Shown here one piece after another: positions 45,438 through 49,180 of a DNA stretch of 64,000 bases. The first letter of the stretch is position 1. Every line of letters starts with the position of its first letter. The position numbers and the translations under genes were made by a program. The stretch is from Coprothermobacter platensis DSM 11748 (lineage in GTDB: Bacteria; Coprothermobacterota; Coprothermobacteria; Coprothermobacterales; Coprothermobacteraceae): positions 501,468 through 565,467 of the forward strand of contig NZ_KB899040.1 of assembly GCF_000378005.1 (NCBI RefSeq), in the 5' to 3' direction. A model generated the notes under the pieces. That model did no database searches. It worked only from the letters and a program-made list of their open reading frames with translations, and had not been told where the DNA came from.

Positions 45438-46291
45438 TGGTAACTGGGCTTTCAGGAGCAGGAAAATCAACGGTATCTAAGGCACTGGAAGATCTTGGAT
45501 ATGTTGTCGTAGATAATGTTCCCGTGGAACTTCTGAATAGTTTGCTCCAATTGTACGAAGCAAAGAACCAAGAACAGCGTGTGGCTGTAGTTGTCGATAG
45601 TAGAAGTTTAAGGGGCCAAGCAGATGTGTCTAACTTTGTCTCCGATTTGCAATTTCTCAAAAGTAAACTACCTCTGAGTGTTGTTTTCTTGGAAGCAAGT
45701 ACGGACACGCTTTTGTCTCGTTTTAATTTGACGCGGCACTTACACCCGTTGGTTCATGCCACAGGTAGCCGCTTGGCTCTGATAGAGGCTATCGAAAGCG
45801 AAAAAGAGTTAATGTCCGAGCTTAGAGATATTAGTGATTTTGTGCTTGATACGACGAACATGAAAGACAAAGAACTTGTTTATCATGTTGAAAACTTTGT
45901 TGGTAAGGACAGGGGACCAGAGTTTTACCTAATCAGTTTTAGTTATCAGCGGGGTCTTCCTACTAACGCCGACATGGTTTTCGACGCAAGGGTATTCAGA
46001 AATCCTTACTACGTTGAAGAATTGCGTACCCTAACGGGTTTGGACGACGGTGTAGCAGCGTACGTTAGAGCCGATGATAAGTATCCTTTCTTCTTGGACT
46101 TGTGGCTTCAATTAGCAGAGAGGACATATGAAGAGCATGTGAAACTTGGTAAACCTTATGTCGTTATCGCTGTAGGATGCACAGGTGGTCAACATCGAAG
46201 TGTGCTTGTAGTACGTGATTTGGCTCAAAATCTTACAGATAGTGGCCACAGTGTTGTTACGTGGCACCGTGAACTGGGTAGTGTCAGTTAG
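45422..46291 (+). CDS. rapZ: RapZ/YvcJ-family nucleotide-binding protein
   Basis: RapZ-family proteins bind nucleotides; in E. coli RapZ controls glmS small-RNA decay, and in Firmicutes YvcJ affects competence. The 289-residue product has Walker A GLSGAGKST (9-17), DNVPVELL, FLEASTDTLLSRF and the C-terminal GCTGGQHRSV. ATG 45422 follows GGGAG with an 8-base spacer. It precedes whiA, as in most Gram-positive bacteria; the usual yvcK between them is missing. Confidence 0.93.
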   Translation: MQKVIVVTGLSGAGKSTVSKALEDLGYVVVDNVPVELLNSLLQLYEAKNQEQRVAVVVDSRSLRGQADVSNFVSDLQFLKSKLPLSVVFLEASTDTLLSRFNLTRHLHPLVHATGSRLALIEAIESEKELMSELRDISDFVLDTTNMKDKELVYHVENFVGKDRGPEFYLISFSYQRGLPTNADMVFDARVFRNPYYVEELRTLTGLDDGVAAYVRADDKYPFFLDLWLQLAERTYEEHVKLGKPYVVIAVGCTGGQHRSVLVVRDLAQNLTDSGHSVVTWHRELGSVS

Positions 46292-47114
46292 CGAAAATTT
46301 CTGGATAGAACTTACATCTTTAGAAATAAAAAATCCACAAAGTGAACTCGAGGGTTTGCTATTGGGTTCTGGTGAAATGGATTTAAACGGTGATCTGTTT
46401 ATTAGTTTTCGCAGAACGGAACCTGTGCGAAGAGTTGTCCGCATATTATCTCAGCTAAAACTTCCCTATGAAATCACTTTTCAAAAGAACCATGCTGCTG
46501 GGTCACGACAGACTTACGTTGTAAAGGCAAAAAACGTAACATCTGTTTTGAAGAATCTACCACTGAAAGATACCACAAGGCTAAACTGGGACGTTATAAG
46601 AGGCATAATGCTGACTACAGGTTACATATCTGACCTAAATCCTTGGTATCATGCGACAATGGATGTGGAAGTGCCGGAGGATGCAGAAGAAGTAAATTAC
46701 TGGCTCAAAGAAAGAATCGGAAAAAGTTACCTCATTTCTAAGCAGAATACTAATACAATTCATATAAGATCCTTTGATGCTCTCTATCGGTTTGTTGATG
46801 GGTTAGGTGCTATTAAAACACGTGAAGAAATCTATGAGCATCACTTCATGCGGATGAAAAAGATATCTGCTCAACGATTGGCAAACTGTGACAATGCTAA
46901 TTTAAAGCGTCAGGTTGCAAAAGCAGAGTTCTATAAGGAATTGTTGGATAATAAGGACATAACTATCTTAAATGATGAAGAAGTGTCACTGCTCAAACTT
47001 AGAGTCGAAGAGCCTGAACTTTCTTATTCGGAAATCGGAGAGCGCCTTGGGATTAGCAAGAGCAAAGTTGCTCGGCTATTAAAAGCAATAGAGGAGAAGC
47101 TGAAAAGTGAATAA
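46281..47114 (+). CDS. whiA: WhiA sporulation/division regulator homologue
   Basis: WhiA is a DNA-binding protein that has a role in division or sporulation in Gram-positive bacteria. The 277-residue product has a LAGLIDADG-like N-terminal part (RGIMLTTGYISD and NPWYHATMDV), the family signature SAQRLANCDNANLKRQVAKA, and a C-terminal helix-turn-helix (SYSEIGERLGISKSKVARLL). GTG 46281 is chosen because the family begins there; the frame extends back into rapZ. No sporulation genes are in the window. Confidence 0.9.
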   Translation: MSVSENFWIELTSLEIKNPQSELEGLLLGSGEMDLNGDLFISFRRTEPVRRVVRILSQLKLPYEITFQKNHAAGSRQTYVVKAKNVTSVLKNLPLKDTTRLNWDVIRGIMLTTGYISDLNPWYHATMDVEVPEDAEEVNYWLKERIGKSYLISKQNTNTIHIRSFDALYRFVDGLGAIKTREEIYEHHFMRMKKISAQRLANCDNANLKRQVAKAEFYKELLDNKDITILNDEEVSLLKLRVEEPELSYSEIGERLGISKSKVARLLKAIEEKLKSE

Positions 47115-48096
47115 TAGCGGCTCGCAAAAACAAGTTCAGCGCATAACGGTCAAAAGGCGACAACTCCTTCGAACTTATATGTCAGAAGGGCTAGCACTTC
47201 CATTTGCGGATTTTGTTACGAAGTACAGCAGTGTATCGGTTCCTGATGAACTTCTTGAAGATCGCATAAGTAGTCAACCCCAAGATATTGACTGGGAACT
47301 TGTGGAACTGCAAATTGACATGATTTTCGAGGAAGAAGAAGCACAAATTGCTTATGGGATCTTAAAATCACTCGATTATCGAGGTTATTTTTCTGGTGAT
47401 ATCCGAGGGCTTTCTTCACAATATAATGTTTCGCTGTCAAAGGTGGAGGAAGTAAGAAAAAAACTAATAACACAGGTGGAACCGTACGGACTGGGAAGTT
47501 TAGGAGAAGACGAATTCTCTGAAATCATAAGACAATTAAAATTGGATCGTCGTGAACACCCTATAGAAAGCCAAGATAATAGTCTGCGACAAACAGAACC
47601 AGATTTCTATATAAGCATAGAGGACGGTACTTTTACGTTACGCCTCAACGACAAATACGAGTACGTTATTCAGAATACCACAGGCATTTATAAGGTAGTG
47701 GCTGAATACCGAATGGATTTGATACGAAGGCTAGCACAGTTGATCATTGAAAACTGCGCTTCAGAATTGGCTAATGGACGAATGACGTTTCTCACACTTG
47801 ACCAAGCCGCTCATGCACTTGGTGTTTCTAAATCTACTGTTTCAAGGTTGGCAAAGTCAAAAGTATTCGATTTTTGTGGCGCCTTGTACGATGTTTCTCA
47901 TTTCTTTACAAGAAGCATAAAAGGTATACCGCAAGGTGAACTTCTTATGGAGATTGCAACCATACTAAAAGAGAACCCTACTGCAACAGATGAAATGATT
48001 GCCCAGCTCTTGAGAATACGTAAGGGATGGAAATTTTCTCGAAGAACAGTGAATAAATACCGTAATATTTTAAGGGAATATGAGACGAAGACGTGA
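47107..48096 (+). CDS. rpoN: Compact, diverged sigma-54 factor (RpoN/SigL)
   Basis: Sigma-54 recognises -24/-12 promoters and needs an ATP-driven activator. This product has only 329 residues, against about 450-500. The core-binding domain is clear (LDYRGYFSGDI, VEPYGLGS; about 85-145), as are EPDFYISIEDG, a DNA-binding helix-turn-helix (LDQAAHALGVSKSTVSRL, 231-248) and the RpoN box SRRTVNKYR (311-319, consensus ARRTVAKYR). Region I, normally glutamine-rich and the target of activators, is a short basic stretch (about 10-45), and acidic region II is nearly absent. Position before gap matches clostridial sigL. No activator or -24/-12 promoter was seen. Confidence 0.85.
   Translation: MNNSGSQKQVQRITVKRRQLLRTYMSEGLALPFADFVTKYSSVSVPDELLEDRISSQPQDIDWELVELQIDMIFEEEEAQIAYGILKSLDYRGYFSGDIRGLSSQYNVSLSKVEEVRKKLITQVEPYGLGSLGEDEFSEIIRQLKLDRREHPIESQDNSLRQTEPDFYISIEDGTFTLRLNDKYEYVIQNTTGIYKVVAEYRMDLIRRLAQLIIENCASELANGRMTFLTLDQAAHALGVSKSTVSRLAKSKVFDFCGALYDVSHFFTRSIKGIPQGELLMEIATILKENPTATDEMIAQLLRIRKGWKFSRRTVNKYRNILREYETKT

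Positions 48097-48136: not shown

Positions 48137-49180
<1,044 letters not shown>

Follow-up and report, generated by a model that had tools for sequence, protein, structure and literature searches.

Sigma-54 (RpoN) is the textbook case of a sigma factor whose RNA polymerase stays closed until it is opened by an ATPase; region I, region II and the extra-long helix are each ascribed a role in this lock. In E. coli, R336 sits at the junction of the extra-long helix with region I, and its mutation results in activator bypass; on a pre-formed DNA bubble an activator becomes dispensable once region I is deleted or R336 is mutated, as stated in an excerpt of PMC7057263. Activators devoid of a DNA-binding domain, CtcC of Chlamydia and FlgR of Helicobacter, are described in an excerpt of PMC3162934. 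In the open PMC literature nothing was found on Coprothermobacter in combination with sigma-54 or RpoN, nor on Coprothermobacter with extracellular protease, genome and subtilisin, and the matches listed contained no case of a natural sigma-54 that is truncated or lacks region I. The Coprothermobacter platensis protein described here is most likely, as judged from sequence comparisons, a new variant of sigma-54: minimal in size, with a changed gate, one activator and apparently two promoters, and still activator-dependent.

The window, i.e. the whole stretch of 64,000 nucleotides that was analysed, contains the rpoN gene at 47107..48096 on the plus strand, identified from the list of open reading frames (ORFs) and by Pfam and NCBIfam searches. 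It starts with GTG and overlaps the preceding whiA gene (46215..47114, plus strand; ORF list and Pfam), and it is followed by gap, encoding glyceraldehyde-3-phosphate dehydrogenase (48155..49180, plus strand). The local gene order is rapZ-whiA-rpoN-gap-pgk-tpi, in which all names except whiA and rpoN were assigned by eye. Since a stop codon lies in frame two codons upstream of the GTG, a longer start is impossible. The 329-residue product, as proposed in the original prediction, matches the sigma-54 DNA-binding domain (PF04552, E=3.1e-16), with a helix-turn-helix at residues 228-257 (47788..47877, plus strand; Pfam search) and the RpoN box SRRTVNKYR at residues 311-319 (48037..48063, plus strand), which in known sigma-54s read the -12 and the -24 element, respectively. 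The core-binding domain (CBD, PF04963) is matched above the cut-off (E=6.7e-11) only along profile positions 17-81 of 185, which correspond to residues 67-131 (47305..47499, plus strand) and thus to the first half of the domain. The protein scores 93.7 with the NCBIfam sigma-54 equivalog TIGR02395, under the cut-off of 277, and the 1.42-Mb host genome contains no second match to the DNA-binding domain. On sequence grounds the protein qualifies as a sigma-54 by its DNA-binding domain, which includes the RpoN box, and by the first half of a core-binding domain.

Relatives of the short rpoN were sought in 41 genomes, among them the host genome (G000), three other genomes of the same genus (G001-G003; G002 78% and G003 68% complete), one of a second genus of the same family (G004), two of another family of the same order (G005 and G006, 93 and 87% complete) and two of the same phylum (G007 and G008). 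The short form is present in all five genomes of the family, and hence in both genera, with lengths of 328-332 residues; the proteins of G001 to G004 (332, 332, 332 and 328 residues) are 51, 51, 52 and 42% identical to the window protein, and their genes are likewise located between whiA and gap. A genome scan with the family alignment yielded matches in two Coprothermobacter metagenome-assembled genomes (MAGs) and one Coprothermobacteraceae MAG. By contrast, the sister-family proteins of G007 and G008 comprise 418-420 residues, and no sigma-54 above the cut-off was found in G005 and G006, even at E<=10. The upstream neighbour of rpoN in G007 and G008 is a short gene that by eye resembles whiA (L011:77-730 and L017:2706-3362); its product of 217-218 residues compares with 276-299 residues in the window family. 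The minimal sigma-54 is, by these comparisons, typical of the family Coprothermobacteraceae. The short length of the protein and its rapid divergence (51-52% identity within the genus versus 84% for the activator) might suggest a decaying gene or a truncation through assembly or annotation. This is highly improbable, as the length is practically equal in five genomes of two genera, the whole-gene dN/dS ratio of G001 versus G002 is 0.10 and the stop codon lies two codons ahead of the start; the occurrence of the same short form in all five genomes rules out an annotation slip.

Canonical sigma-54s, represented by the E. coli protein of 477 residues and the chains 9mse_M, 8f1i_M and 8f1j_M, share with the window protein the first half of the CBD, the helix-turn-helix and the RpoN box; the host genome likewise encodes an activator with GAFTGA and contains consensus -24/-12 promoter sequences (see below). 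The window protein is 148 residues shorter and displays no region I match. The losses were counted against the E. coli chain with Q127, P187, Y303 and R336 as anchors, which are Q69, P126, Y184 and R202 in the window protein. Of the residues missing, 58 would precede the CBD, whose first and second halves account for another 3 and 58, respectively; a further 15 are lacking between the tyrosine and the R336 equivalent, and 14 after the latter. What remains of the second half of the CBD (residues 127-184, 47485..47658, plus strand) falls short of the E. coli stretch P187-Y303 by 58 residues, as counted on alignments, so that the loss from the CBD is as large as that from regions I and II. The extra-long helix (residues 194-222, 47686..47772, plus strand; AlphaFold model and alignments) has been cut back at its region I-contacting end, again as counted against E. 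coli. The original prediction thus recognized the DNA-binding part and the RpoN box correctly; its core-binding part holds for the first half of the domain, and the further losses from the CBD and the extra-long helix had been missed.

R202 (47710-47712, plus strand) occupies the place of E. coli R336 in the alignments, and the equivalent arginine is invariant in two MAFFT alignments (13 of 13 and 8 of 8 sequences), while a third shifts R202 by one position. R202 also aligns with this place in a match to an 8rec chain, which carries an alanine there. An AlphaFold model based on four sequences (mean pLDDT 76, pTM 0.55) contains a 29-residue helix at 194-222; its N-terminal helices are short and of low confidence. 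By VIA the model best matches the sigma-54 of a polymerase complex (8f1j_M; Z 15.9, 289 residues, rmsd 12.1), and the alignment begins at E. coli residue 12, which would fit a position of the N-terminus at the site of region I, without proving it. In Foldseek, the sigma-54 rows down to rank 31 have low TM-scores (0.25-0.44).

The segment that replaces regions I and II (residues 1-61, 47107..47289, plus strand) is conserved in the family. The Pfam profile of region I (Sigma54_AID, PF00309) matched none of the five short proteins at E<=10, nor any other sequence of the host genome at this threshold; in the set of seven sequences scanned, the two matches were those of the sister-family proteins of G007 and G008 (1.7e-8 and 1.3e-6). 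A minimal sigma-54 without a normal region I, as originally proposed, is borne out in this respect, and the profile alignment that had been suggested as a check disclosed no complete region I in the window protein. The original description of region I as reduced to a short basic stretch fits approximately residues 8-24; it does not account for the approximately 60 residues that precede the core-binding part. Profiles of our own gave variable results when compared with shuffled sequences: 19 to 435 of 1000 shuffles were as good as the family proteins with a profile of ten canonical sequences, 29 to 1105 of 2000 with the sister family only, 1 to 724 of 2000 with the sister family plus the short protein of genome G194 (see below), and 1 to 110 of 2000 with all twelve sequences, a profile that carries little weight, having been chosen after the first had failed, and with which the window protein was the worst of the five (110 of 2000). 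Applied to whole proteins, the ten-sequence profile found its best match in the window protein at residues 275-291, outside the N-terminus. The alignment by hhalign with canonical sigma-54 starts only at residue 65; MAFFT sets the N-terminus against region I in two alignments and shifts it in another. The faint signal centres on LxLPFxE/DF, which the two MAFFT alignments pair with LSLPIGEI of G007. The region I signal obtained with our own profiles is therefore weak and profile-dependent.

Substitution rates suggest purifying selection on the segment. Between G001 and G002, dN/dS is 0.02 in residues 1-60 (about one amino-acid change) versus 0.10 in the whole gene, and between G001 and G003, where dS is saturated, dN is 0.090 in the N-terminus versus 0.092 in the whole gene; the degree of conservation of the N-terminus is thus similar to that of the remaining protein. 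Most likely it is a segment in use that represents a much-changed region I. In this scenario region I would have been eroded and re-formed rather than simply being absent, and region II would be gone.

Four places in the host genome match the sigma-54 activator domain PF00158, of which only L001 encodes a receiver-AAA+ activator with GAFTGA, comprising the Response_reg and Sigma54_activat domains. G001 to G004 each contain one strong PF00158 match, and the GAFTGA loop is intact in all five genomes with the short sigma factor. In G005 and G006 the counterpart keeps the Walker motifs, whereas the stretch that contains GAFTGA is deleted in both; the G005 counterpart follows the same kind of transporter ATPase gene as the activator of the window family. 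G008 combines a full-length sigma-54 with an activator that carries both GAFTGA and the HTH_8 domain. Eight activators were aligned (that of G007, L041, with GAFTDA and possibly not an orthologue, was left out), of which HTH_8 matched three at E<=10, namely those of G005 and G008 and, identified by sequence, G006. It follows that the five family activators lack HTH_8, which is shown singly only for L001 (no match at E<=10); no match was obtained in L036 at E<=0.01. About 45 residues of a diverged C-terminal tail are left. The family activator therefore seems to have lost the Fis-type DNA-binding domain, and binding of DNA by other means through the diverged tail is possible. It resembles CtcC and FlgR in having an AAA+ sigma-54 activator domain without a recognizable C-terminal helix-turn-helix, here coupled to a receiver domain; it differs from them, as far as they are characterized in the excerpt of PMC3162934, in its diverged tail of approximately 45 residues and in the shortened sigma factor that it would serve.

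The strongest argument that the short sigma factor still needs its activator comes from the reciprocal pattern of GAFTGA and HTH_8, although it is drawn from sequences, and the GAFTGA contrast, based on a single sister genus, may reflect one event. As an observation apart, L042:1078-2451 and L043:1006-2208, in genomes without detectable rpoN, encode NtrC-like response regulators that have lost the GAFTGA stretch and kept the Walker motifs; they have likely switched their use from sigma-54 activator to plain regulator.

Coprothermobacter is thermophilic, and a sigma factor that has lost region I and whose extra-long helix has been trimmed could open DNA unaided, perhaps with the help of high temperature, the activator serving another purpose. 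Such a natural activator-independent form had been envisaged in the original prediction; it would be consistent with the lack of a region I match in all five proteins, with the 15 residues missing from the extra-long-helix stretch and the 58 from regions I and II relative to E. coli, and with the bypass on a pre-formed bubble by region I deletion or R336 mutation (PMC7057263, excerpt). We consider it improbable. The bypass forms need pre-opened DNA, according to the same excerpt, and the laboratory mutants resemble the Coprothermobacter protein in an unrecognizable region I and an altered lock between region I and the extra-long helix but differ from it in that Coprothermobacter keeps the R336 equivalent, a conserved N-terminus of the size of region I, which does not drift freely, and a GAFTGA activator. 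The retention of GAFTGA in five of five genomes, its loss in two of two without detectable rpoN, and standard -24/-12 sequences between genes also argue against independence. Of the two features that had been named beforehand as speaking against an unusual form, standard promoter sequences were found, in two strong copies, and several normal activators were not, the genome having one. A newly wired form, the other option of the original prediction, may apply insofar as region I is changed and the activator seemingly lacks a DNA-binding domain.

A minimal, still activator-dependent sigma-54 with canonical promoters, a very small regulon and an activator that works from solution is in our view the probable reading of the sequences as a whole. 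The sigma factor would use the first half of its core-binding domain for binding RNA polymerase and would read canonical -24/-12 promoters, and the closed complex would be held until the single AAA+ activator engages the changed N-terminus with its GAFTGA loop. The regulon would be very small, with the two promoters in the host genome located before exported-looking proteins as targets, and the activator, which seems to have no Fis-type DNA-binding domain, would act from solution as a global on/off switch. It is conceivable, though we would not expect it, that the gate which region I forms with the extra-long helix was rebuilt such that the very few promoters are melted with little or no ATP-driven help, or such that the activator acts from solution through a new N-terminal contact that has ceased to be a region I. 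The activator-dependent system resembles a reduced switch for surface proteins that is still under control. Lock parts that have been lost or rebuilt while the GAFTGA activator was kept, beside rpoN-less relatives without the loop, amount to a natural deletion series that could reveal the minimal lock of sigma-54, and the small protein with its apparent two-promoter regulon would suit a simple in vitro system.

The putative promoters were identified through the element TGGCACGTTTGTTGC, which we take to be the sigma-54 consensus TGGCACG-N4-TTGC. Exact copies occur twice in the host genome (P1 and P2), twice in G001 and once in G004, and G002 has one copy that differs by a single mismatch. Copies with <2 mismatches are absent from G003 (68% complete) and from the four non-family genomes G005-G008. 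By chance approximately 0.002 exact copies per genome are expected, as calculated from base composition. All six family sites follow the end of a gene, and their distance to the next listed ORF downstream is 15 to 264 bases. The proteins encoded after four of the copies (G000, G002 and G004) have a signal-like start, by eye. Cu_amine_oxidN1 is present in both proteins after P1 and P2, combined with bacterial Ig-like domains in the second; between P1 and P2 a subtilase of 1169 residues is encoded. The protein downstream of P2 matches the protein after the G004 site, in another genus (4.4e-78, 33%), and at its end also the protein after the second G001 site (57%). By sequence, the two intergenic copies, conserved in the family, represent candidate -24/-12 promoters. 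No shared word of >12 bases was found upstream of the promoters by a search that would miss a degenerate site, which suits an activator that binds no enhancer.

The spacer GTTTG is conserved equally with the -24/-12 boxes, beyond the known needs of sigma-54 alone, and the promoter search was limited to one pattern with few mismatches. Both points would agree with a sigma factor and activator that work as outlined but have their main targets elsewhere, the 15-mer serving another protein and the true promoters being too divergent. We regard this as rather unlikely, since the element equals the presumed consensus, is intergenic and ahead of genes in three species, and has no equally good copy in the rpoN-less genomes G005 and G006.

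The looser pattern TGGCACNNNNNTTGCW, with up to one mismatch, yielded 91 sites in the host genome versus 74 and 55 in G005 and G006. Raw counts fail to distinguish genomes that have rpoN from those that lack it, and the control, the pattern reversed, was poorly matched; the counts were rejected as promoter evidence. In the window, the count with two mismatches, 26 sites, is lower than the shuffle mean of 33.6. The three exact matches in the host all lie inside open frames of 265-418 codons. Both GG and GC are kept in 59 of the 91 host sites; filtering by overlap with ORFs, which covered the host genome, placed 52 of the 58 sites examined (site 1344950 was left out) in ORFs of >=150 residues, 4 in ORFs of 60-149 residues and 2 in no ORF of >=60 residues. 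P1 is one of the two uncovered sites, and P2 is one of the four, under short antisense frames only. Site 847544 was rejected because it overlaps in antisense a tiny Cys-containing ORF (L163:about 530-650) before a gene that by eye is radical-SAM-like; the tiny ORF is presumably SCIFF-like, as judged by eye.

The leaders between P2 or its counterparts and the ORF, 190-260 bases long in three genomes (L097:10946-11138, L098:11200-11462 and L135:7262-7491), contain 5, 6 and 9 units of ACCTA, ACCTT or ACCTG, often as GATGACCTAA or CACCTAA. An Rfam search of the P2 leader gave one match, below the gathering score.

Short sigma-54s also occur elsewhere. In a survey of 192 genomes, 161 match the sigma-54 DNA-binding domain, and twelve with weak or short matches were re-examined. 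At least six unrelated genomes outside the phylum (G194, G127, G057, G121, G035 and G178) encode short divergent sigma-54s in open frames of 331-395 residues, which resemble the Coprothermobacter form in length and in mostly lacking a region I match (one of seven proteins matched at E<=0.1, that of G057). The CBD is matched only at 4-79 of 185 in G194, a part similar to that in the window protein, and at 7-174 in G127, which keeps most of the profile; four proteins of G121, G035 and G178 had no CBD match in a scan at E<=0.1. A strong PF00158 match is present in each of the six, with GAFTGA in G194, G057, G121 and G035 and only GAFTDA in G127 and G178 (one G178 activator, L216, stood outside the comparison). 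Sigma-54 has probably shrunk more than once with the activator being kept, as far as sequences tell. Frames that reach the edge of the examined stretch, G144 (308) and G196 (373), were not counted as short, and G112 and G193 fell below the family cut-off on re-examination. In G100, a single frame (L206:1327-2271) joins a sigma-54 DNA-binding-like domain to a GIY-YIG domain; it has no CBD or region I match, the only PF00158 match of the genome is weak and no true activator, and the frame is taken as decayed or repurposed.
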